The notes under the pieces were generated by a model. The model made no database searches, was not told the DNA's origin, and was given only the letters and a program-made list of their open reading frames with translations. From Nautilia sp. PV-1 (GTDB lineage: Bacteria > Campylobacterota > Campylobacteria > Campylobacterales > Nautiliaceae), in contig NZ_CP026530.1 in the NCBI RefSeq assembly GCF_004006315.1, positions 1,600,001 to 1,664,000 on the forward strand: a DNA stretch of 64,000 nt, given 5' to 3'. Shown piece by piece: positions 14,931-62,390 of this stretch (position 1 is its first letter; every line of letters begins with the position of its first letter). The translations under genes were made by a program, and so were the position numbers.

Positions 14931-14949
14931 ATAATGGTTTTTTATTTTT

Positions 14950-14977
14950 AACTTTTCACTTTTCATTTTTCACTTCT
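14950..14977. repeat. Heptamer array, CACTTTT family (4 units)
   Basis: Four exact 7-bp steps (AACTTTT, CACTTTT, CATTTTT, CACTTCT) directly follow the stop codon of the HlyD gene. With the TATTTGT array beside it, two unrelated heptamer families fill this one intergenic gap. Confidence 0.75.
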
Positions 14978-16087: not shown

Positions 16088-17411
16088 AATCTCCTCCGTT
16101 AATTTTCAGTTTTATATCCAAAAAGAATATTTTCGCAATAATTGCCTCTTTTTTAGCTCTTGCAGTAGCAAGTTTAGCTATTGCGTCATTTAAATCACTG
16201 CTGTCCGCAAGACCTTCGTCAAATTTCGCTTTTATATATTCATAATAACTTTCTCTTGCTTTTATCTCTTCTTTTGCAGCATTAAGCTGTGTATAAAGTG
16301 CCCTTAAAGTCTGTTTATCGTTTTTATAATCCGTTTTAATTTTGTTCATATAATCATTATAAAAAATCATTTCGGCGTTTTTTGCAAGCTTTGCGGCTTC
16401 CAAATCGGCTTTTTTCGCTCCGCCGTCAAAAATATTGAATTTTATTCCAAGAGCTATATATGATTTATCCGTATTTTGATAATCGTTTCTGCTAAGAGCC
16501 AGGTTGTCCCCCTCTTTTTTCAGTCCGGCTTCTACTCCTATTTGAGGGTAATATTTTGATTTAGCCAGTTTTATATCGGTATCCGAAATTCTTAATGCTT
16601 CTTTTATGGCTTTTACGTCAGGTCTGTTTTTAAAATCAGGCTTATACAAAGTTTTTTGTATATTCACACCGTCTATATCTTTTATTTTTTTATTTAGAAG
16701 ATAGCTTAACATGTTTATTAAAGAAAGCTTTTGAGACCGGGTTTCTTTTATGGATGCAGTTATTTCATAATATTTTGCATTAATCTCATCTACGCTCGAT
16801 TTATTTATAAGACCCTCTTTATAAAACCCCATAGCTTTTTCTTTTGCGATTATCAATGCGTCTTTAGCCTTTTGAAGGGCGTAAAGCTTTGCTTTAAGAG
16901 CATATATGTCAGAATATATTTCCGCCGCGTTTAAAATAAGCTCTCTTTTAACATTCTGAAGAGTAAGTTTTTCTTTTATAAGTTCAAGTTTGGCTTTGTT
17001 TATCATATTACTCAACGCAAAACCAGTAAATAAAGGATATGAATATTTGATAACACCCATAAAATGATTTTTATCCGCCATAGGAAGCTCACTGTTAAAA
17101 GTCTGATATACTAAATGTACACCGTCCGGAGCAACTGCAACAGGCTGAACGGTTGTCAGTTTCATAACCGGTCTGTCAAACATATGTACTGCATTATATT
17201 CGGCATCAAGACTTCCGAAATTTTTTGCCTGTACGGCTTTTAGTTTCTGCTCGTATATTTTTACTTTTTGAGCTTCCATTTTATATTTTAATGAATTAGT
17301 TATATCTTTTTGTATATCACTAAAACTTTCTGCATTTAAAAATAAAGAAAATAACAAAAGTAAAAACAATTTCTTTAATTCTCCATTCTCAATTCTCAAT
17401 TCTCCATTCAT
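16077..17411 (-). CDS. TolC-family outer membrane efflux protein
   Basis: About 444 residues with a signal peptide and two repeated helical/strand halves typical of TolC channels (for example KKADLEAAKLAKNAEMIF and the C-terminal ARESYYEYIKAKFDEGLADSSDLNDA region). I start it at the ATG at 17411, which overlaps the upstream stop as ATGA and has AAAGGAA upstream; an open frame continues further up but is inside emrB. The first 13 codons (MNGELRIENGELK) are encoded by an ATTCTCC/ATTCTCA heptamer array, so the secretion signal begins only at about residue 14. It probably serves both the EmrAB-like and the ABC pump. Confidence 0.88.
   Translation of the reverse strand: MNGELRIENGELKKLFLLLLFSLFLNAESFSDIQKDITNSLKYKMEAQKVKIYEQKLKAVQAKNFGSLDAEYNAVHMFDRPVMKLTTVQPVAVAPDGVHLVYQTFNSELPMADKNHFMGVIKYSYPLFTGFALSNMINKAKLELIKEKLTLQNVKRELILNAAEIYSDIYALKAKLYALQKAKDALIIAKEKAMGFYKEGLINKSSVDEINAKYYEITASIKETRSQKLSLINMLSYLLNKKIKDIDGVNIQKTLYKPDFKNRPDVKAIKEALRISDTDIKLAKSKYYPQIGVEAGLKKEGDNLALSRNDYQNTDKSYIALGIKFNIFDGGAKKADLEAAKLAKNAEMIFYNDYMNKIKTDYKNDKQTLRALYTQLNAAKEEIKARESYYEYIKAKFDEGLADSSDLNDAIAKLATARAKKEAIIAKIFFLDIKLKINGGDYEF
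17378..17405. repeat. Heptamer array, ATTCTCC/ATTCTCA family (4 units)
   Basis: Four exact 7-bp units in perfect register lie inside the first codons of the TolC-family gene and encode its repetitive GEL-RIEN-GEL N-terminus. The following unit (ATTCATA) is degenerate and carries the start codon. Confidence 0.85.
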
Positions 17412-18934
17412 ATCGTTCCTTTCACTTTTCTTTTTTTCACAAACAACAGGGCAAAAACAAACAAACTTCCTACAAATCCCCAAAATCCTGCATCAAGCCA
17501 GACGTATTTATACCCGTAATTGGCACTCATAAACGATTCGAGCATTCTGAATATCTCTATTCCGGCTTTTCCGAAATAACTCTCAAGTGCAGAAACAAAA
17601 TCACTGACTATATGGTGATTCTGAATACTTACCATCCCGTCAAACTCTTTATTGCTGTAATATACTAAATTGTTAGTAGCAATAGCAGTTCCGAAACTGC
17701 CTCCTATAAATCTTACATAATCCATAGTCATAATACCCTGCTCTATTTTTCCGTTAGAGTTATTCATAACAAGCACGGTAATCGGAGCAAAGAAAAGACC
17801 CATTGCTATTCCAAAAGGCATCGTTTTAAGCACAGCTTCATAAAACGGCGTATAATAATTAAGAGTCGGAAAAAGCACAAACGAACTGTAAAGGTATATT
17901 ACAGCCCCCACAATCAGTACAGGCACGGGAGAGAATTTATCACTTAAAGCCCCGGCTATCATACTAAACACACCTATCCATATACCAAATCCCAAAACAC
18001 CGAGCCCTGTCTGAATGGAACTCAGCCCTTTAATATGCTCATAAAACATCGGAATCAGATAAAAATACTGATACATTGAAAATCCAAGCAGTACAAAATA
18101 TATAAGAATTCCCAGAGAATAATTAGGATTTTTAAACAATGTATAATCAAACAGCGACTCTTTAGAATAATATTCGCTCATAATAAAAAATAACGTGCCG
18201 AAAAACGTAGCAAAAGCAAGATATACAATTAAAGAAGAATTAAACCATCCATACTGCTGCCCTTTGCTAAGCAGTATCAAAAGTGCCACAGTTGCAACAG
18301 TTAAAAACGCGACGGATATGAAATTCAGCTTTTCATCTTTTCTTTCATCCCTGTCCGGAAGAAGGAGTGAACCGAATATAACCAGAACAATACCGATAGG
18401 AACATTTACAAAAAATACCGCCCTCCAGCTGAACCATTCCGTCAGATACCCTCCGAGTGTCGGACCTATCGCCGGTGCAAAGGCAACTCCAAGGGCAAAT
18501 ATACCCATGGCAATCCCTCTTTTTTCAGGCGGGAAAAAGCCAAAAAGCATCGCCTGGGCCGTAACCATTATAAGCGCTTCGGCAAACCCCTGAATCACCC
18601 TGGCGACTATTATAAAAGAAAGCGAATTTGATATACCGCATAAAAAAGAAGCCACCGTAAAAACACCCACGGCTGTTATGTATATCCACTTGTTTCCGAA
18701 TTTTTTAATCATCCACTCAACAAGCAAAAGCCCAACCGCAGCGGCAATCATATACGCGGTAATTACCCACTGCACACCGTACATATCGGTTGAGAGCGGC
18801 CCCTTAAGACGAGGCACGATAATATCTACGACAGTAGTGTCAAGTACCGCCATGAAAGCACCGACAACAACTAACAACACCCATGTTGTTAAATTGAGAA
18901 TTGAGAATTGAGAATTGAGAATTTTAGTTTGCAT
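17408..18934 (-). CDS. MFS multidrug exporter, DHA2 (EmrB/QacA-like) family
   Basis: This is a proton-driven drug exporter of about 508 residues and roughly 14 membrane helices. Helix 1 holds the DHA2-type motif VLDTTVVDIIVPRL, and WFSWRAVFFVNVPIG follows helix 5. With the upstream HlyD-type EmrA homologue it would form an EmrAB-like pump using the downstream TolC protein. The ATG at 18934 is preferred to a TTG three codons earlier. Codons 5 to 14 (ILNSQFSILN) are a translated heptamer array, placed between the start codon and helix 1. A four-helix-bundle gene now separates this gene from emrA. Confidence 0.92.
   Translation of the reverse strand: MQTKILNSQFSILNLTTWVLLVVVGAFMAVLDTTVVDIIVPRLKGPLSTDMYGVQWVITAYMIAAAVGLLLVEWMIKKFGNKWIYITAVGVFTVASFLCGISNSLSFIIVARVIQGFAEALIMVTAQAMLFGFFPPEKRGIAMGIFALGVAFAPAIGPTLGGYLTEWFSWRAVFFVNVPIGIVLVIFGSLLLPDRDERKDEKLNFISVAFLTVATVALLILLSKGQQYGWFNSSLIVYLAFATFFGTLFFIMSEYYSKESLFDYTLFKNPNYSLGILIYFVLLGFSMYQYFYLIPMFYEHIKGLSSIQTGLGVLGFGIWIGVFSMIAGALSDKFSPVPVLIVGAVIYLYSSFVLFPTLNYYTPFYEAVLKTMPFGIAMGLFFAPITVLVMNNSNGKIEQGIMTMDYVRFIGGSFGTAIATNNLVYYSNKEFDGMVSIQNHHIVSDFVSALESYFGKAGIEIFRMLESFMSANYGYKYVWLDAGFWGFVGSLFVFALLFVKKRKVKGTI
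18893..18920. repeat. Heptamer array, ATTGAGA family (4 units), left of four-helix-bundle gene 1
   Basis: Four perfect copies of ATTGAGA on the plus strand lie inside the emrB-like N-terminus, three bases beyond the stop codon of the four-helix-bundle gene. The array on the other side of that gene reads ATTCTCC on the plus strand, so the two are inverted. Confidence 0.9.
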
Positions 18935-19286
18935 TTTTAACAATTCTGACTAAAATTTTTGTTACTTCTTCTAAAAGCGCTAAAACTTGCTCAGTTTTTT
19001 GCTTAGGCAAATAATCACTAGCAATTAATAAATCCGGCCAATACTTAGTTTCCCTTGCCTCCTTTAAAGCAATAGACATTTTATTTCTAAAATCCTTTTT
19101 ACTGATACCGTCTAACGCTTCAACAACATTTGCTCCAATAGATGTACCGCTTCTAAGCAACTGTTTTGAGAGTACAAATTCTTTTTTTTCATTTAAATAC
19201 TTATACACTTTTATTATTTTGAGAGAAAGTTCAAACGTTTTGTCTTTAATAATATTTGTTTTTAATTCTCCATTCTCCATTCTCAA
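18924..19286 (-). CDS. Four-helix-bundle protein, 23S intervening-sequence (IVP/S23) family, copy 1
   Basis: About 120 residues of the PF05635/TIGR02436 family, known from proteins encoded in 23S rRNA intervening sequences and related to the Avd accessory protein of diversity-generating retroelements. The hallmark LLRSGTSIGANVVEAL is followed by KDFRNKMSIALKEARETKYW. Function in the family is not established. The gene starts inside a heptamer array (TTG at 19286, or ATG at 19280 with GGAG eight bases upstream, itself part of the array); its first residues RMENGEL are array-coded. It sits between emrA and emrB, overlapping both, and is unrelated to efflux, which points to insertion. Confidence 0.9.
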   Translation of the reverse strand: MRMENGELKTNIIKDKTFELSLKIIKVYKYLNEKKEFVLSKQLLRSGTSIGANVVEALDGISKKDFRNKMSIALKEARETKYWPDLLIASDYLPKQKTEQVLALLEEVTKILVRIVKNAN

Positions 19287-19299
19287 TTCTCCATTCTTT
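19265..19299. repeat. Heptamer array, ATTCTCC family (5 units), right of four-helix-bundle gene 1
   Basis: Five exact 7-bp units (ATTCTCC, ATTCTCC, ATTCTCA, ATTCTCC, ATTCTTT on the plus strand) span the emrA stop codon and the start of the four-helix-bundle gene. One unit supplies the TGA stop of emrA, others the GGAG and ATG of the next gene. Confidence 0.9.
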
Positions 19300-37871: not shown

Positions 37872-38921
37872 TCATTTTCCTTTACAATAAAATTCTTTAT
37901 ACCACTCAACAAACTTTCTAATCCCATCTTTTACGTCAGTATACGGCTTATATCCAAAATCTTTTTCAAGATCAGTAGTATCCGCCCATGTACTCGGTAC
38001 GTCACCGGGTTGCATCGGAAGAAGGTTCTTTTTAGCTTTTTTACCAAGAGATTCTTCTATCGCTTCTATAAAATCCATAAGTTTAACTGGGCTTCCGTTT
38101 CCGATATTGTAAACCTTATAAGGAGCAATACTTTCACTGGCTCTTCCGTTCCACTCAGGATTTGATTTCGGAGGATTATCAATCACTCTTACCACACCTT
38201 CTACTATATCGTCAATATAAGTAAAATCTCTTTGCATTTCTCCATAGTTATACACATCAATCGGCTTATTTTCAAGTATGTTTTTTACAAATTTAAAAAG
38301 CGCCATATCCGGTCTTCCCCACGGCCCGTAAACGGTAAAAAATCTAAGTCCTGTAGTAGGAATATTATAAAGATACGAATAAGTGTGAGCCATTAATTCA
38401 TTTGATTTTTTTGTAGCCGCATAAAGGCTTATCGGATGATCTACATTGTCATCTGTTGAAAAGGGCTGTTTTTTATTAAGTCCGTATACACTGGAACTGC
38501 TTGCATAACACAAGTGATTTATATCATTAAATCGTGATGCTTCCAATAAATTCATAAATCCCACAATATTACTGTTAATATAAGAATACGGATTTTCAAT
38601 AGAATATCTTACTCCAGCCTGTGCAGCAAGGTGACAAACTTTATTAAATTTTTCTTCTTTAAAAAGTTTATCTACACCGGCCTTATCTTCAAGATTTAGT
38701 TTTATAAACCTGTAATTGGTGTATTTGTTACTGGTTATTAGTTTATTGTATTCTATTTCTTCTCTTTTTATTCCTGTCTCTTCCAGTCTGCCGTATTTGA
38801 GGTTTACGTCGTAATAGTCGTTGATATTATCAAGTCCGATTACTTCATCACCTCTTTCAATTAGTCTTTTTGCCAAATGAAAGCCTATAAATCCTGCTGT
38901 TCCTGTGATGAGAATTTTCAT
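37872..38921 (-). CDS. UDP-glucuronate 4-epimerase-like NAD-dependent epimerase
   Basis: The 349-residue protein has the NAD loop [32 protein letters not shown] typical of the CapI/uronate 4-epimerase group, [16 protein letters not shown] and [16 protein letters not shown] with catalytic Tyr and Lys, then [16 protein letters not shown]. It would turn UDP-glucuronate into UDP-galacturonate; ugd upstream makes the substrate. Residues around [12 protein letters not shown] are coded by a TATTNGT heptamer array (38712-38753) placed at a loop before the conserved RFIKLNLED. The start overlaps the nucleotidyltransferase gene by four bases. Confidence 0.9.
38712..38753. repeat. Heptamer array, TATTNGT family, in frame in the uronate epimerase
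   Basis: About five to six 7-bp steps on the plus strand (units such as GTAATTG, GTGTATT, GGTTATT, AGTTTAT) lie inside the epimerase gene and encode residues around [10 protein letters not shown]. The copies are degenerate but the 7-bp register holds. Confidence 0.6.
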
Positions 38922-39211
38922 ATTTTAATACCTTTTAACGCTTCTTTTTCTATTAAATTATTAAAATCTTTATGTATGACAATATCTACATTTCTAAAAA
39001 GAGCATCTTTTAAATTGATTTTCGCTTTTATTCGTTTTTCATAAATGTTTTCATAATTTTGAGGAATTACAAATATATCAACATCTCCGCCTTTTTTACT
39101 CAAATCAGTTCTGCTTCCGAATATATAAATATCACTTTTACCAAAAATTTTATTAATCGTATTTTTGATAATTTTAATTTCTTCCGAATTTAACCTGATT
39201 TGCGTATTCAT
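38918..39211 (-). CDS. MNT-type nucleotidyltransferase antitoxin
   Basis: This small protein of about 97 residues has the minimal nucleotidyltransferase motif [20 protein letters not shown] (GS...DxD). In MNT/HEPN modules such proteins AMPylate and silence the HEPN toxin. The ATG at 39211 is preferred because GAGG lies six bases upstream; a TTG at 39223 is the longer option. It overlaps the HEPN gene by about 38 bases and the epimerase gene by four, so the pair is embedded in the glycan operon. Confidence 0.82.
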
Positions 39212-39647
39212 ATTTTTCCTCAACTTTTTTAACTATTTTCTCAAATATTTCTATACTGTCTAACATTTGATTTATTGCATTAACTACAGACTCAATTTCT
39301 TCAGGATAATCGTGAGAAAGGGAATTTCTGATTTCTCTCAATTTTTTCCATTCATAAATGCTGTTGATTATTCCCTCTTTTTCTATATATTGCAAAATAT
39401 CTATATAACTTTTATCAGTTAAATCATATTCCAGTTTTTCCAATATTTCTTTAAATACTTTTTCACCTAATAAAGATTGAATTTTACTAAACCTATATGC
39501 CAATGCATCTAAAGATTTTACATCGTACGACTTAATGTCCTCATATTTTGAGATATCAATGTTTCCATATTTTTCATTAAATTCATCTCTGATATTTTTC
39601 AAAATTTCAAGACTTTCATTTAATACTTTTATATGAAATTCTATCAC
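39174..39647 (-). CDS. HEPN-domain protein (HepT-like toxin)
   Basis: The 157-residue helical protein contains the HEPN ribonuclease motif Rx4H in REIRNSLSHDYPEE near residue 118. HEPN partners of MNT proteins act as RNases and toxins. The order HEPN first, MNT second with a long overlap is common for this module. It lies between ugd (upstream) and the uronate epimerase, with no sequence relation to either; it may stabilise the glycan locus. Confidence 0.82.
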   Translation of the reverse strand: MIEFHIKVLNESLEILKNIRDEFNEKYGNIDISKYEDIKSYDVKSLDALAYRFSKIQSLLGEKVFKEILEKLEYDLTDKSYIDILQYIEKEGIINSIYEWKKLREIRNSLSHDYPEEIESVVNAINQMLDSIEIFEKIVKKVEEKYEYANQVKFGRN

Positions 39648-39666: not shown

Positions 39667-40860
39667 TCAGTCTCTTGAATAAATATCTCTCGTATAAACT
39701 TTATCTTTTACTTTTTGAAGGTTTTCATCAATTCTGTTTGCAAGTATCACATCTGATTTTTTGGTAAATTCTTCAAAATCACTCACAAATTCAACCCCTT
39801 CAATTTCATCACCTTTTGCCATCGGCTCATATATTACAAGTTTTACGAACGGTTTTAGCATTTCCATTACGTCAAATATGGCAGAGCTTCTGAAATTATC
39901 ACTTCCGGCTTTCATTATAAGTCTGTATACTCCTACAGTACCGGTTGATGGCTGATTGTTGATGGTTGATAGTTTATCAAGCACCCTTTTGGCGATAAAC
40001 TCTTTTCTTGTTGTATTGCTATCCACAATTGCTTCCATTAATTTTTGAGGAATGTTTTCTATTGTATAATTTGCTACAAGCTGTTTAGTATCTTTTGGCA
40101 GGCAATATCCTCCGTATCCGAAGCTTGGATTATTGTAATGGTTACCAATTCTAGGGTCAAGACATACGCCTTCGATTATATCTTTGGTATTAAGATTTTT
40201 CATTTCCGCAAAAGTATCTAACTCGTTAAAAAATGAAACCCTCATAGCCAGATATGTATTGGCAAACAATTTAACTGCTTCCGCTTCAGTATTGTTAGTA
40301 AACAACAGTGGAATTGTTTCTTTAAAAGCTCCGTCTCTGAGTAAATTTGCAAATATTTCGGCTTTCGTTGATTTTTCTCCTACAATAATTCTGCTTGGAT
40401 AAAGGCTGTCAAAAAGGGCTTTTCCTTCTCTTAAAAATTCTGGTACGAAGAAAATATTTGGATAATTAAACTCTTTTTTAATTCTCTCAGTATATCCGAT
40501 TGGAATAGTAGACCTTATAACAATTGTGGCTTTCGGATTTATTTCAATCACGTCTTTTATTACGCTTTCTATTGATTTGGTATTGAAATAATTGGTTACC
40601 GGGTCATAATCCGTAGGAGTTGCAACCACCACATATTCAGCACCTTCATATGCTTCTTTTTTATCAGTCGTAGCTTTAAGATTCAAATTTTTTGTCTGGA
40701 AAAATTCCGTAATTTCCTTATCTTCAATAGGACTGATTCTTTTATTTATAAGTTCCACTTTTTCAGGAATGATATCAAGTGCCACAACTTCATTATTCTG
40801 AGCTAATAAAACCGCATTACTAAGCCCTACGTATCCTGTTCCTCCTATCGCTATTTTCAT
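39667..40860 (-). CDS. ugd: UDP-glucose 6-dehydrogenase
   Basis: This enzyme oxidises UDP-glucose twice to UDP-glucuronate. The 397-residue product has the NAD fold [52 protein letters not shown] and the active-site cysteine in [14 protein letters not shown]. Residues [11 protein letters not shown] (about 295 to 305) are coded by a GGTTGAT heptamer array in the linker before the C-terminal UDP-binding domain. AAAGGAA precedes the ATG. It supplies both the 4-epimerase and, probably, the glycan acted on by the C5-epimerase-like protein. Confidence 0.95.
39943..39977. repeat. Heptamer array, GGTTGAT family, in frame in ugd
   Basis: Five 7-bp units in exact register (GGTTGAT, GGCTGAT, TGTTGAT, GGTTGAT, AGTTTAT) encode STINNQPST in the interdomain region of the UDP-glucose dehydrogenase. 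Confidence 0.8.
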
Positions 40861-40875
40861 AAAAATTCCTTTGAA

Positions 40876-40903
40876 TTTAGTTTATTAGTTATTTGTTATT
40901 GGT
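40876..40903. repeat. Heptamer array, TATTNGT family (4 units), left of four-helix-bundle gene 2
   Basis: Four exact units on the plus strand (TTTAGTT, TATTAGT, TATTTGT, TATTGGT) overlap the 3' end of the second four-helix-bundle gene and encode its last residues DTNNK. The array on the other side reads ACCAATA, its reverse complement. Confidence 0.85.
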
Positions 40904-41260
40904 ATCATTTTTATTTTTTATGCTTTTTATAAAACCGTTTAGTCTTTTTCCTAAAATTTCCAAACTTTTTATAATATGGTCATATTCATTTTTTTCAATT
41001 AAACTTCTCTTATACAGTAAATGAATCCAATGTTTTGATTCCCACAACGACCCTCTTGCATTATAATAAAATTTTACACTATCTTTATAATGAAACCTTC
41101 CATAACCCTCTGCAATATTTGCACCGATTGAATCAATGGAACGAATTACCTGAGATCCGATATTATATTTTAAATCATTACTTAAATCCATGTAAATTTG
41201 CCAAATTTTATCACTTAATTTCAGAGATAATTTATATACTTCCAGTTTTCCTAATTCCAA
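40889..41260 (-). CDS. Four-helix-bundle protein, 23S intervening-sequence (IVP/S23) family, copy 2
   Basis: This 123-residue protein is the second PF05635/TIGR02436 member in the window. The hallmark VIRSIDSIGANIAEGYGRF is followed by KDSVKFYYNARGSLWESKHW. The start is a TTG (41260) with AGGAG six bases upstream. It resembles the first copy only in the family core, so it is not a recent duplicate. It lies between ugd and a comEA-like gene and is bracketed by two TATTNGT heptamer arrays in inverted orientation, the same arrangement as copy 1 but with a different heptamer. Confidence 0.9.
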   Translation of the reverse strand: MELGKLEVYKLSLKLSDKIWQIYMDLSNDLKYNIGSQVIRSIDSIGANIAEGYGRFHYKDSVKFYYNARGSLWESKHWIHLLYKRSLIEKNEYDHIIKSLEILGKRLNGFIKSIKNKNDTNNK

Positions 41261-41276
41261 TATTTTCTCCTAATAT

Positions 41277-41297
41277 ACAAATAACCAATATACCAGT
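41277..41297. repeat. Heptamer array, ACCAATA family (3 units), right of four-helix-bundle gene 2
   Basis: Three exact units on the plus strand (ACAAATA, ACCAATA, TACCAGT), reverse complement of the TATTNGT family, lie just upstream of the Shine-Dalgarno sequence of the second four-helix-bundle gene. Confidence 0.8.
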
Positions 41298-41300
41298 CTG

Positions 41301-41537
41301 CTATTTAACCTCTATTTCATCTTTGATTTTATCAAACGTTTTTTTGCCTATTCCTTTTACTTTCATAATGTCTTCTATTTTTTGAAACGGATGTTTTTTA
41401 CGGTATTCCATAATAGCTAAGGCTTTTGTATGACCTATACCTTTTAAAGAGTGTAATTCTTGCATTGTTGCCGTATTAATATTGACTTTTGCAAACAAAC
41501 TTATTACAAATAAAAACAAAATTAAAAACTTTCTCAT
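41301..41537 (-). CDS. ComEA-like helix-hairpin-helix protein
   Basis: A short secreted or periplasmic protein of 78 residues. It has a signal peptide (MRKFLILFLFVISLFAKV) and two helix-hairpin-helix motifs, MQELHSLKGIGHTKALAIME and IMKVKGIGKKTFDKIKDEI. This is the minimal ComEA-type DNA-binding module, used in natural transformation to hold incoming DNA. It ends just before the heptamer array next to the four-helix-bundle gene. The role in DNA uptake is by family. Confidence 0.85.
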   Translation of the reverse strand: MRKFLILFLFVISLFAKVNINTATMQELHSLKGIGHTKALAIMEYRKKHPFQKIEDIMKVKGIGKKTFDKIKDEIEVK

Positions 41538-42835: not shown

Positions 42836-43852
42836 TTACAATTTCTTCTCCCACTCATATGCCGTTTTGCATATAGTCTCCAAATCGTCGTATTTTGGTT
42901 GCCATTTCATTTTTTCTTTTATTTTCGAACTGTCCGCTATAAGCATAGCCGGATCACCTGCTCTTCTCGGTGCTGTTTCTACCTTAAAATCAACTCCGCT
43001 TACTTTTTTAACGGTATCAACCACTTCTTTTACGCTTGCTCCACTGCCGTATCCGATATTAAAAATATCACTCTCGTTTTCATCAAGATAATCAACCGCT
43101 TTTATATGTGCATCCGCCAGATCCATTACATGTATATAGTCCCTGATACATGTCCCGTCAGGCGTAGGATAATCCGTACCGAATATATACATTCCGTCTC
43201 TTTTTCCTACAGCACATTCGCTTGCTACTTTAATCAGATGCGTTGCATTTTTCGTTTTTTGTCCTATACTGAGGTCCGGCGCAGCTCCCGCTACGTTAAA
43301 ATATCTGAAAATCACATATTTAAATTCAGAATTCGCCTTTGCCGCATCCTGTATTATTTTCTCACTGAACAGTTTGCTCTGTCCGTATGGATTTATAGGT
43401 TTTGTTTCAAACTTTTCATTAATTTTACATTCTCCATTATCAATTCTCAATTCATCAAATTTCGGCTCTCCGTATACAGCGGCTGTAGAAGAAAATATAA
43501 ATTTTTTAACACCGCTTTCGTTTGCAATACGGACTAAATTAGCAGTGTTTGCGGTATTGTTCAGATAATATTTAAGAGGTTTTTCAACGCTTTCAGGCAC
43601 AATCAGACTTGCCGCGAAATGTATTACAGCGTCAAACTTTTCTTTTTTAAAAATTTCTTCAACTTTATTCCAGTTGCTTAAATCTTCTTTTATAAATTGA
43701 AATTTCCTTATTTTTGCCAGCTCTTCAATAGTGGAATCAAACCCTGTAACCAGACTGTCTAACACACTCACTTCATAATCACTGTTTTCCAAAAGCATCT
43801 TTACTACATGACTGCCTATATAACCCGCCCCGCCCGTTATTAATATTTTCAA
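42836..43852 (-). CDS. galE: UDP-glucose 4-epimerase
   Basis: GalE interconverts UDP-glucose and UDP-galactose (or the N-acetyl forms). About 338 residues with ITGGAGYIGSHVVKML, FSSTAAVYGEPKF, and NPYGQSKLFSEKI with the catalytic Tyr and Lys. I prefer the TTG at 43852, which is six bases after AAAGGA and gives the normal LKILITGG start; an ATG six codons earlier has no ribosome-binding site. An ATTCTCC-family heptamer array inserts DELRIDNGECK between YGEPKF and the PINPYG segment. The first 21 bases and leader are duplicated upstream of cysQ. Confidence 0.95.
   Translation of the reverse strand: MKILITGGAGYIGSHVVKMLLENSDYEVSVLDSLVTGFDSTIEELAKIRKFQFIKEDLSNWNKVEEIFKKEKFDAVIHFAASLIVPESVEKPLKYYLNNTANTANLVRIANESGVKKFIFSSTAAVYGEPKFDELRIDNGECKINEKFETKPINPYGQSKLFSEKIIQDAAKANSEFKYVIFRYFNVAGAAPDLSIGQKTKNATHLIKVASECAVGKRDGMYIFGTDYPTPDGTCIRDYIHVMDLADAHIKAVDYLDENESDIFNIGYGSGASVKEVVDTVKKVSGVDFKVETAPRRAGDPAMLIADSSKIKEKMKWQPKYDDLETICKTAYEWEKKL
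43429..43456. repeat. Heptamer array, ATTCTCC family (4 units), in frame in galE
   Basis: Four 7-bp units in register (ATTCTCC, ATTATCA, ATTCTCA, ATTCATC) encode the extra residues ELRIDNGEC in the loop before the active-site tyrosine segment. Confidence 0.85.
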
Positions 43853-45712: not shown

Positions 45713-45752
45713 TCTTATTCCTTTAAAAATCTATTTTTCTTTTTTCTTTTCT

Positions 45753-45787
45753 CTATTGTCTATCGTCTATTGTCTATTTGTCTATTG
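45753..45787. repeat. Heptamer array, CTATTGT family (5 units)
   Basis: Five units near CTATTGT (one step of 8 bp) fill most of the gap between the cysD stop and the cysN start. Confidence 0.8.
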
Positions 45788-47298: not shown

Positions 47299-48162
47299 TT
47301 ACACCACCACAAAATATGGATTTAAAAGGTTTTCTTTGTTGTATATGAGAGGTGTTGGGTACTTGGTGTTAGGTGTTTGGTCTTGGGTGTTGGATTTTGG
47401 GTATTGGGTATTATTATCTAAGACCTTTGACCATATACCTTCATCATAAATATAAGTCATCTTACCCGCCTCTCTTACAATAGCGTCTGCAGCCGCAGTA
47501 TCCCATTCCATGGTAGGAGCAATCCTCGGATATATATCCGCGCTTCCGTCTGCCACCATACAAAGTTTTAGACTACTGCCTTTAGATACAAGATTTAAGG
47601 TTTCAGGTGTTAGGTATTGGCTTAATTCATTAATGAATTTTTTAGTTTCGTCATTCATATGGGACTTGCTTGCTACAATTTTTAATTCTTCTTTATTTTT
47701 TAATATGTTTAATCTCTCTTTTAATGACTTTAGCGATTTTTTTATTTCTATTTTTTCTCCATTTTTATAAGCTCCCTTACCTTTTTGGGCATAATACATT
47801 ATATCTGTTACCGGAGCATAAACAACACCCAAAACAGGCTCACCATTATGGATAAGAGCAATATTTACCGTAAACTCTCCGTTTTTTTTAATAAATTCTT
47901 TTGTCCCGTCAAGAGGATCCACACACCAGTAATATTCCCAGTTTTTTCTTATATCATAAGGTATTTCTTTACCTTCTTCACTTAGTATAGGGAATTTACT
48001 GATTTTTTCTAACCCTTCTACTATTATCTCATGAGATTTTTTATCAGCAAGTGTAAGGGGAGATTTATCGTCTTTAAACTCTATTTCAAAACCATTTTTA
48101 TAAATATTTAATATTTCTTCTCCAGCTTGTTTAGCTATATTTATTAAATAAAAAATTTTCAT
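47299..48162 (-). CDS. cysQ: 3'(2'),5'-bisphosphate nucleotidase
   Basis: CysQ clears PAP, the by-product of PAPS use. The 287-residue inositol-monophosphatase-fold protein has PILSEEGKEIPYD, the metal site WCVDPLDGTKEFIKKNGEFT and the C-terminal WDTAAADAIVREAGG-like segment (AAADAIVREAGK). Two heptamer arrays are in frame: a GGTGTTA set encodes LTPETLNL, and a long nine-unit set encodes the residues between VLDNNTQYP and PTPLIYNKEN near the C-terminus. A 33-bp copy of the galE start precedes the ATG. Confidence 0.92.
   Translation of the reverse strand: MKIFYLINIAKQAGEEILNIYKNGFEIEFKDDKSPLTLADKKSHEIIVEGLEKISKFPILSEEGKEIPYDIRKNWEYYWCVDPLDGTKEFIKKNGEFTVNIALIHNGEPVLGVVYAPVTDIMYYAQKGKGAYKNGEKIEIKKSLKSLKERLNILKNKEELKIVASKSHMNDETKKFINELSQYLTPETLNLVSKGSSLKLCMVADGSADIYPRIAPTMEWDTAAADAIVREAGKMTYIYDEGIWSKVLDNNTQYPKSNTQDQTPNTKYPTPLIYNKENLLNPYFVVV
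47351..47413. repeat. Heptamer array, GGTGTTG family (9 units), in frame in cysQ
   Basis: Nine consecutive 7-bp steps hold perfect register (GGTGTTG, GGTACTT, GGTGTTA, GGTGTTT and so on). This is the longest array in the window and codes for about 20 residues rich in Asn, Thr, Pro, Gln near the CysQ C-terminus. Confidence 0.92.
47598..47625. repeat. Heptamer array, AGGTNTT family (3-4 units), in frame in cysQ
   Basis: AGGTTTC, AGGTGTT, AGGTATT and a degenerate fourth unit encode LTPETLNL in the middle of CysQ; same family as the long array 200 bp away. Confidence 0.75.
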
Positions 48163-48242: not shown

Positions 48243-48692
48243 TTAATTTAATCTATCAATATTTTTAATCATAATCAGTATATTGTTTTTTTTATCTTTA
48301 AACAAAATTTTTTGACCGTCCGTTTTACAGAAAAATCCTTTCGGACATTTATAGTCTAAAATTTTATCAAAAAAGTCGCTCGGATAACCTTTTGGCAGAT
48401 ATTCTTTAATAAATTTTTCTTTATCCATACATCTGCCGTTAAGACATACAAACGAATTTTTCAGCGTTATTACCACAGGCACGTTTCCGGCCTTGTAAAT
48501 TGTCAGTTTCTTATATCCGAATCCTTTTTCCAAAAAACCTTCGTCCGCAGCTTTAAATTTCGGTGTTTTTATTACGGCGTATATGGGTGTGGTTTTAGTC
48601 GCACAACCGGACATCACAGTGAAAAGTGAAAAACAGAAAGTAAAAAATATGACTTTTTTTATAATTCTCAATTCTAAATTCTCCATTCTCAA
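48243..48692 (-). CDS. Small lipoprotein of unknown function
   Basis: I do not recognise a family. The 149-residue product has a lipoprotein signal peptide ending in the lipobox VMSGC (Cys about residue 29) and a mature part with two cysteine pairs (FVCLNGRCMD and YKCPKGFFCK) that could form disulfides. The start is a TTG at 48692 (five to six bases after AAGG) or an ATG two codons later. Both the first ten residues (RMENLELRI) and the hydrophobic core of the signal peptide (FCFSLFTV) are coded by heptamer arrays of two families. Confidence 0.75.
   Translation of the reverse strand: MRMENLELRIIKKVIFFTFCFSLFTVMSGCATKTTPIYAVIKTPKFKAADEGFLEKGFGYKKLTIYKAGNVPVVITLKNSFVCLNGRCMDKEKFIKEYLPKGYPSDFFDKILDYKCPKGFFCKTDGQKILFKDKKNNILIMIKNIDRLN
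48617..48644. repeat. Heptamer array, AAGTGAA family (4 units), in the lipoprotein signal peptide
   Basis: CAGTGAA, AAGTGAA, AAACAGA and AAGTAAA in 7-bp register encode part of the hydrophobic segment of the lipoprotein signal peptide. It is the same family as the array near 62.36 kb. Confidence 0.65.
48664..48691. repeat. Heptamer array, ATTCTCA family (4 units), at the lipoprotein start
   Basis: ATTCTCA, ATTCTAA, ATTCTCC and ATTCTCA in exact register cover the first codons of the lipoprotein gene, just after the Sua5-like stop codon. Confidence 0.85.
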
Positions 48693-48694
48693 TT

Positions 48695-57350: not shown

Positions 57351-58598
57351 TTACAAATTTTTTATTAAACTTTTTATAACTTCCCTGTCGCTGTAATCTA
57401 CTTTTTTATTGCAATACTGGATGTAATTTTCATCGCCTTTGCCTAAAACCATTAAAATATACCCTTTTTCTTTAGCTAGCTCTACAGCCCTCTTAACAGC
57501 TTCTTTTCTATCGGTAATAATCTCAAACGGTTTGCTTTTTATACCCTTTGCGATTTCTTTACATATATCTTCCGCTTTTTCACATCTTGGATTATCTTCC
57601 GTAATAATTATATAATCGGCATATTTATCGGCAACCTCGCCCATTAAAGGCCGTTTATCTTTATCCCTGTCTCCTCCCGCTCCGAAAACAACTATTTTTT
57701 TGCCTTCTACGGCGCTTAGCACTTTTTCCATTCCGTCCGGCGTATGTGCAAAGTCAACAATTGACATAGGATTTTTCGACACTATTTCCATTCTGCCGGG
57801 GACACCCTTGAAATCTTTTAATTGAGAATTGAGAATTGAGAATTGAGAATTAGTTAAAATTTCCGCTGTTTTTAAAGCAAGAGAAAAATTCATTTTATTG
57901 AATTCTCCTGCCATTGGAATATCATCAACTATAGGTTTGTCTAAAACATATAAATTGTTTGCATTAACTTTAAACTCATAACCACCTACATCTACTAATG
58001 AAAAATTTGAATTCTCAATTCTCAATTCTTCATTCTCCATTCTCAATTTTCCATTAACCACTTTCAGAGCATCATCTTTTAAAAAGCTCTCTTTAACTTT
58101 TTTATATTCTTCCATTGTTTTATGAAAATCAAGATGGTCTTGTGAAAACGAAGTCAGTATTTTAGCCGTAAACTCAATGCCCTCAGTCCTTTGCTGAACT
58201 ATTGCATGCGAGCTTACTTCCATAATGTAAAAGTCCGGTTCGTATTGTACGGCTCTTTTGAGAGTTGTGATTATAGGAGGAGTTGTAAGTGTTTTGATTT
58301 CTTTTTTTTCACCGTTTAAATAAAATCCTTCGGTTCCCTGTATTCCTACACTGTAACCCAGCTGATGTAACAGATACCCTAAAACGAATGCGGTAGTTGT
58401 TTTACCATTTGTTCCTGTAATGCCGATAAATTTGGTTTTAAGATTTAATGATTTTATAAATTCTGCAGGTGTTAGAAAATTTTGAATATTAACAGCGTAT
58501 TTACTGTTTTGAGCGGTTTTTAAAAATATTTTACTATCATCAAGGTCCTGTGTGTTATCTGTAATCAATCCGTTTAATAACAGTTTTTTATAATCCAT
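57351..58598 (-). CDS. murE: UDP-MurNAc-tripeptide synthetase MurE, with two in-frame heptamer arrays
   Basis: MurE adds meso-diaminopimelate to UDP-MurNAc-L-Ala-D-Glu. The 415-residue product has the ATP loop GITGTNGKTTTAFVLGYLL, EVSSHAIVQQRTEGIEF, FSQDHLDFHKTMEEYKKVK, KGVPGRMEIV and the DAP-specific EDNPRCEKAEDI. It lacks most of the N-terminal domain, as in other Campylobacterota. Two ATTCTCA-family arrays are in frame: one codes for GKLRMENEELRIEN after LKVVN, the other for NSQFSILNSQ before LKDFKGVPGR. Both lie at surface-loop positions of the family fold. Confidence 0.94.
   Translation of the reverse strand: MDYKKLLLNGLITDNTQDLDDSKIFLKTAQNSKYAVNIQNFLTPAEFIKSLNLKTKFIGITGTNGKTTTAFVLGYLLHQLGYSVGIQGTEGFYLNGEKKEIKTLTTPPIITTLKRAVQYEPDFYIMEVSSHAIVQQRTEGIEFTAKILTSFSQDHLDFHKTMEEYKKVKESFLKDDALKVVNGKLRMENEELRIENSNFSLVDVGGYEFKVNANNLYVLDKPIVDDIPMAGEFNKMNFSLALKTAEILTNSQFSILNSQLKDFKGVPGRMEIVSKNPMSIVDFAHTPDGMEKVLSAVEGKKIVVFGAGGDRDKDKRPLMGEVADKYADYIIITEDNPRCEKAEDICKEIAKGIKSKPFEIITDRKEAVKRAVELAKEKGYILMVLGKGDENYIQYCNKKVDYSDREVIKSLIKNL
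57821..57848. repeat. Heptamer array, ATTGAGA family (4 units), in frame in murE
   Basis: Four perfect ATTGAGA copies on the plus strand encode NSQFSILNSQ just before the conserved KGVPGRME segment. Confidence 0.92.
58011..58059. repeat. Heptamer array, ATTCTCA family (7 units), in frame in murE
   Basis: Seven 7-bp units in perfect register (ATTCTCA, ATTCTCA, ATTCTTC, ATTCTCC, ATTCTCA, ATTTTCC, ATTAACC) encode the residues between LKVV and SNFSLVDVGG. Orientation is inverted relative to the array 160 bp away. Confidence 0.92.
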
Positions 58599-62355: not shown

Positions 62356-62390
62356 AAAGTAAAAAGTAAAAAGTGAAAAGTGAAAAAGAG
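62356..62390. repeat. Heptamer array, AAAGTGA family (5 units), upstream of the alpha operon promoter
   Basis: Five exact 7-bp units (AAAGTAA, AAAGTAA, AAAGTGA, AAAGTGA, AAAAGAG) lie immediately upstream of the -10 box of the alpha operon, where a -35 box would be. Confidence 0.88.

Follow-up and report, generated by a model that had tools for sequence, protein, structure and literature searches.

Two PF05635 genes bracketed by inverted arrays in the window

The stretch of DNA analysed here, called the window, comprises 64,000 nt of Nautilia sp. PV-1 (assembly GCF_004006315.1, contig NZ_CP026530.1, positions 1,600,001-1,664,000, forward strand). The PF05635 gene under study, copy 2, is located at a comEA-like/ugd junction and not in an rRNA gene, the location expected of a 23S intervening sequence (IVS) (Table 1). 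Its product, IVP, scored 97.3 bits against the PF05635 profile (cut-off 33.8) and 100.5 bits against TIGR02436 (cut-off 24). Rfam gave no match in the window. Adjacent small ORFs at 38918-39647, amid sugar-nucleotide genes, resemble a nucleotidyltransferase together with the partner that binds its substrate, the PF08780 match being weak.

Table 1. Genes, arms and period-7 arrays in the window (positions of the window; D and U, arms downstream and upstream of the IVP gene).
Feature	Position	Strand	Remarks
PF05635/TIGR02436 four-helix-bundle protein (23S rRNA IVP, S23p), copy 2	40889..41260	-	123 aa, TTG start, RBS AGGAG
D arm, copy 2	40882..40903	-	ACCAATA-ACAAATA-ACTAATA in gene sense; period-7 array score 10
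U arm, copy 2	41277..41295	-	2 units, TATTGGT-TATTTGT in gene sense
Whole element, copy 2	40870..41300	-	arm-to-arm stem closes RNA MFE and centroid structures, z -1.55
ugd, UDP-sugar dehydrogenase-like, downstream neighbour of copy 2	39667..40860	-
comEA-like HHH protein, upstream neighbour of copy 2	41301..41537	-
PF05635 gene, copy 1, emrA-like/emrB-like junction	18924..19286	-	RNA fold z -3.6
D arm, copy 1	18892..18923	-	AATTCTC x4.6 in gene sense; reads into emrB-like N-terminus
U arm, copy 1	19265..19297	-	AATGGAG/AATTGAG in gene sense
Solo array inside ugd CDS	39943..39977	-	TCAACCA units (coding sense); in-frame insertion, +24 nt net
Inverted AATTGAG pair without IVP, inside Mur-ligase-like CDS	57820..58055	-	surrounds 158 nt
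Solo period-7 array	14938-14975
Solo period-7 array	17378-17409
Solo period-7 array	43422-43453
Solo period-7 array	45734-45778
Solo period-7 array	47365-47412
Solo period-7 array	47584-47618
Solo period-7 array	48663-48694
Solo period-7 array	62356-62386

On the forward strand, the D arm of copy 2 reads TATTAGT-TATTTGT-TATTGGT at 40883-40903 and overlaps the last codons of the gene, and the U arm (41277-41290) reads ACAAATA-ACCAATA and lies upstream of the gene, 16 nt away from the start. The two arms are mutually inverted over 17 nt (88% complementary); local alignment of the inverted arms gave 22 columns with one gap and a score of 13, against only 5 in direct orientation. The preliminary description had reported TATTNGT units facing inverted ACCAATA/ACAAATA units around this gene, and our analysis bears this out with three and two units, respectively (P = 0.0008 with a Markov null and 0.0003 with window positions of equal AT content and spacing). 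Taken alone, this bracket is short, and that of copy 1 (AATTGAG/AATTCTC) is much longer. As in 23S IVS, the ends of copy 2 are complementary and able to close a stem.

The architecture common to both window copies, with differing array sequences, extends to the whole 1.79 Mb genome: inverted brackets with differing units were found at 5/5 PF05635 genes, one of them a pseudogene, so that the outcome named in advance as fatal to the idea, other copies devoid of arrays, did not occur. The picture of heptamers throughout holds for four copies and gives way at the fifth, at 463 kb, which has an 8-nt unit (CTACTTAT). The heptamers of the two window copies, described as unrelated, match at ~4/7 positions, which is the chance level and not below it.

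Arrays flank PF05635 genes in many phyla

We collected 168 PF05635 loci, 88 from the same family and phylum, Campylobacterota, and 80 from many other phyla, and counted a flanking array when a period-7 repeat with a score of at least 10 was located within 150 nt of the gene. In the Campylobacterota set, 51% of the genes had such an array upstream and 68% had one downstream; the corresponding values in the other-phyla set were 41% and 42%, compared to 5% and 2% in control windows. The sole other period clearly enriched was 8 (~15% in the other-phyla set), the remaining ones being near zero. Units of 8 nt replace those of 7 in a minority of elements (L093, L110, L115, L124, L159 and L001).

The arms are alike within a copy. 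The U arm scored on average 17.4 against the reverse complement of its own D arm and 8.2 against those of other loci, and no direct-repeat signal between U and D arms was detected in this set. Among 82 phylum loci, the own partner arm ranked in the top 5% for 79%, and a clear bracket was missing in ~20%. At the level of units, the 84 elements with both arrays gave a U-D match of 5.83/7 within an element and 3.75/7 for mismatched pairs. Polarity is fixed, the G-rich arm lying upstream (upstream unit with G > C in 86 elements and G < C in 6), and the gene is mostly in sense between co-oriented genes (128 sense and 3 antisense among loci with both neighbours on one strand). Arm lengths of U and D were not significantly correlated (rho 0.18, p 0.10). 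A design of the U arm for stop codons with a D arm open in all frames was considered and rejected, as there was no excess over letter-shuffled units.

Some junctions recur: emrA-emrB, galE, ugd and hldE in Campylobacterota and sdhA-sdhB in Bacteroidota, names which we assigned from the translations. Often, the downstream array is translated in frame with the following gene and gives it a new N-terminus. In Campylobacterota and in Bacteroidota, orthologous IVP proteins occupy the same junction (for example emrA-emrB or sdhA-sdhB) in different families, as would be expected if IVP were a domesticated operon gene whose arrays regulate expression. We judge this very unlikely, given the many unrelated junctions, the occurrence of pseudogenes and a patchy distribution, with 44/397 genomes above the cut-off in the window's phylum (PF05635 is present in 46/61 genomes of one Bacteroidota family). 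It also speaks against domestication that, in the congener G018, the comEA-ugd junction itself holds another IVP subfamily, whose arms are of the AAGTTAG/ACTAACC type. In this genome, ugd is frameshifted downstream of the IVP element (1565488-1566677; L178, L180).

Arrays without a gene

Period-7 arrays in the window numbered 15, with 1.35 expected, and other periods were near the null. One of the solo arrays forms the N-terminus of a TolC-like ORF ending at 17483. The TCAACCA insertion in ugd is lineage-specific, being common to the congener G018 only and absent from other genera. In the Mur-ligase-like gene, the AATTGAG pair has its G-rich arm first in the coding sense, like the elements, and the array inserts translate as KLRMENEELRIEN and NSQFSILNSQL. 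IVP-free inverted pairs were also observed at L023, L032, L119 and L284. The co-occurrence of gene-flanking repeats, inverted pairs and singletons is that of RAYT/REPIN systems.

In Campylobacterota, background arrays with a score of at least 14 numbered 17 per 400 kb in IVP-bearing and 1 per 400 kb in IVP-free genomes (genome-level p 0.005). We considered whether background arrays track IVP presence generally and rejected it, since the Flavobacteriaceae values were 1 and 1; IVP is present there in 8-16 copies, and yet the sampled background held 1 array per 200 kb.

The array-gene-array block is mobile

Relatives in cyanobacterial plasmids (PLSDB) supplied filled and empty versions of sites, with flanks ~85-98% identical, and the insert at filled sites was the whole array-gene-array block. 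At the Trichormus plasmid C site, the empty version is AAAGTTAAAAA|GTAATTAAC, with flanks 98% identical in three other plasmids, and the insert is a 0.43 kb block with TCAGAAG/TTCAGGA-type arrays at its start and end. Nostoc C052 and ATCC 53789 differ reciprocally at two sites, each being filled where the other is empty, and the elements there are unrelated; the comparison of Aulosira with three plasmids gave a further site where 10-17 nt of target were lost. Moreover, a single element (78-82% DNA identity, unit TCAGGAG) was found at three plasmid sites with unrelated flanks, the similarity stopping at the outer array edges. The arrays are therefore the ends of a mobile element of ~0.42 kb and move with the gene. 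One truncated element (L242, Nostoc C052 pC052_E) retains the upstream array and the 5' part of IVP, the 3' part and the downstream array being deleted as far as the next gene.

These data bear on the reading of the arrays as ordinary microsatellites generated by slippage, with the gene among them by chance. Solo arrays, in the window and inside genes, and a varying unit count are what slippage would give. This reading nevertheless fails as a full account because the arrays lie inside the insert at filled sites; their enrichment at gene flanks with periods 7 and 8, their inverted orientation, the private unit shared by both arms and the almost array-free Flavobacteriaceae background also argue against it, and we regard it as scarcely credible.

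The element does not behave as an IS or DDE transposon, which would combine a transposase domain with a target duplication of constant length. At the plasmid junctions, we found no constant duplication, only a candidate duplication of 0-5 nt or a deletion of 10-17 nt. In the sampled chromosomes, we saw no recent, nearly identical copies occupying different sites.

Units follow protein relatedness at short range only

The preliminary description had proposed that each copy is linked to its own heptamer as a transposase is to its ends, and that protein clade should predict the unit. For proteins less than 60% identical, units matched at 3.65-3.96 of 7 positions, the chance level; the match rose to 4.5 at 60-70%, 5.2 at 70-80% and 6.0 above 80% identity (Mantel r 0.17, p 0.001). 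We counted 84 distinct units among 107 elements, and copies of the same genome were no more alike (3.66) than copies of different genomes (3.86). Even orthologous emrA-emrB proteins bear differing units (AATTGAG, AAAATGG or AAAAGTG). The link between unit and protein thus exists at short range only, and a stable clade code is not supported. Clade predicts the heptamer among close relatives, and independence of the two, which would have told against the proposal, is seen only beyond them. What remains of the proposal is that the arrays are ends travelling with the gene, as at the three sites and in the filled/empty pairs; the clade code is lost, with chance similarity below 60% identity and differing units at the emrA-emrB and comEA-ugd junctions. 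The comparison with a transposase is an analogy, a recombinase domain being absent.

Co-evolution of protein clades with their heptamers, each protein reading its own unit in keeping with that proposal, would account for the climb in unit similarity above 60% identity and for units travelling with moved copies. Common descent alone explains this short-range link, and the chance-level similarity at lower identity, the number of distinct units and the differing same-site orthologs make such pairs unlikely. Units drift faster than proteins, yet the arms of a copy remain similar. One arm is thus probably recopied from its partner, at transposition or by conversion.

Relation to 23S intervening sequences

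All three 23S genes of the genome G041 contain a PF05635 element whose heptamer arms read GAATACA-GATTACA. The element replaces the tip of a hairpin that we take to be helix 45; an IVS-free congener has the plain hairpin GGCTTGATTTATCAAGC. An rRNA-gene location was found for L088/L201 only. As one copy replaces the tip of this 23S helix, the elements can be viewed as 23S IVS that also colonise gene junctions. An arm-to-arm stem was present in the MFE and centroid structures of 4/4 elements tested (z -3.6, -1.55, -6.25 and -3.1, the third value being that of the G041 23S element), so that elements outside rRNA also fold with such stems. We examined covariation in the sense RNA as a sign of selection and rejected it: arm mismatches were not biased toward G.U, the bias being opposite (48+25 wobble versus 98+44 non-pairing), and selection on RNA pairing is therefore not seen outside rRNA.

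Taken together, these results make it likely (probability about 0.75) that gene and arrays together constitute a single mobile element of ~0.42 kb, of the 23S IVS type, which colonises gene junctions as well. One clear antisense insertion, that of a Nostoc edaphicum element (L237) between nrdB and nrdA, stands against it, as do the mismatches not biased toward G.U, the absence of a consistent target duplication, the loci with no clear bracket, the absence of a reverse transcriptase from this genome and from G238, and the lack of nearly identical recent copies in the sampled chromosomes. In the mechanism that we propose, the arms of the transcript would pair into a stem with the IVP mRNA in the loop, as in 23S rRNA. 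The 23S IVS are excised by RNase III (PMC4990558), and by analogy a similar cut in the arm stem would limit harm to the host operon. More speculatively, IVP, which is Avd-like and has pentameric homologs, might bind to its own arm, as RNA or DNA, and might aid the spread of the element through an activity supplied in trans.

The 23S IVS of Leptospira, Coxiella and Campylobacter share with the elements described here the protein family, a length of ~0.4-0.5 kb, complementary ends and an ORF in the loop, and one of our loci is a genuine helix-45 IVS whose arms consist of heptamers. Unlike them, almost every element, the window copy included, is located between protein genes, and unlike those in the papers found, the elements end in tandem arrays of a 7- or 8-nt unit private to each copy.

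Protein fold and candidate partners in movement

The AF2 model of the copy 2 protein (pLDDT 96.2) is a four-helix bundle with a TM-score of 0.88 to 2gsc. The best Foldseek matches were 2gsc and 2rld, followed by Avd 4dwl (TM-score 0.77, sequence identity ~10%), and also included Avd in reverse-transcriptase complexes of diversity-generating retroelements (DGR). The protein of structure 2GSC assembles into a toroidal homopentamer (PMC4990558). Profile scans detected no catalytic domain in IVP, PF05635 being the sole domain matched.

An element of this kind could be a passenger, moved in trans by an array-recognising transposase or HUH enzyme with IVP uninvolved. The lack of a catalytic domain agrees with this, as does the occurrence of Y1_Tnp genes in 8/14 IVP-bearing but only 1/10 IVP-free Campylobacterota genomes. 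As a regular partner, however, the HUH transposase was rejected: six IVP-rich genomes lack it, and its own loci are essentially array-free (7/8 sampled Y1_Tnp loci without a period-7 array, the eighth with a degenerate AT-rich one), the single Y1_Tnp gene of the Nautilia genome having no flanking arrays either. Neither a fixed terminal motif nor a target duplication was found, and we consider a passenger status rather unlikely, if less so than co-evolved pairs. A resident reverse transcriptase was also rejected as partner: it occurs in 4/14 IVP-bearing and 2/10 IVP-free genomes and is missing from G238 despite nine IVP copies.

Avd shares its fold with IVP and is an essential accessory of the DGR reverse transcriptase (PMC10053308). 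Unlike a DGR, the Nautilia genome has no reverse transcriptase (PF00078), and no template/variable repeat was seen. RAYT/REP/REPIN systems resemble the IVP element in having a single gene flanked by short repeats, with gene-free inverted pairs and solos (PMC3116915). In contrast to RAYTs, IVP has no Y1 HUH domain (PF01797) and its ends are 7-8 nt tandem arrays that differ in almost every copy; RAYTs are single-copy (PMC3116915), whereas the IVP gene is present in many copies. One IVP query gave no match in phage records.

A possible origin for orphan heptamer repeats

The orphan heptamers GGGAATC/GGGGAYT (Xanthomonas and Nostoc) and TAACTGA (Beggiatoaceae) have the same period 7 as the elements, and are mostly intergenic, with convergent inverted pairs reported (PMC4692102). 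Xanthomonas genomes contain 70-75 convergent GGGAATC pairs each, left without explanation (PMC4692102). Heptamer repeats were not connected to PF05635 in PMC4692102 or PMC4679880, where the corresponding terms are absent. Nor did we find such a link elsewhere in the open literature searched, or a description of array-ended elements outside rRNA in that on IVS, heptamers, REPIN and Avd; earlier notice in other places is possible.

We scanned 369 Gammaproteobacterial genomes for the published Xanthomonas heptamer as (GGGAATC)x4. A single genome matched, and its only IVP is flanked by GGGAATC arrays; the reversed control string matched a second genome, whose one IVP is flanked by heptamers of its own. 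A Nostoc plasmid element carries GTAGGGA arrays. From these few genomes, the convergent Xanthomonas pairs look like the gene-less form, and some of the seven-base repeats described without explanation from several bacteria probably originate from the heptamer-array element.

PF05635 is a very widespread family and heptamer repeats are over-represented in bacteria with an unexplained origin; the present analysis joins both into one question, namely how a protein without a catalytic domain spreads an element with drifting short-repeat ends. More tentatively, at somewhat less than even odds, PF05635 genes could mark an unrecognised pan-bacterial class of mobile elements with inverted array ends of a freely drifting 7-/8-nt unit that stays similar in both arms, no recombinase and an Avd-like nucleic-acid-binding pentamer, of which 23S IVS would be the rRNA members and the heptamer repeats of cyanobacteria, Xanthomonas and others the gene-less derivatives. 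This would explain the recurrent 'four helix bundle' genes in operons and the lineage-specific in-frame peptide insertions in conserved proteins.

Finally, lists of CRISPR-linked genes include IVP (PMC10910872). In cyanobacterial plasmids, we observed IVP elements between cas6 and cas4 in CRISPR operons (L254, 1250-1970; L255, 1100-1910), with upstream arrays of more than 100 nt, and their position may explain these entries.
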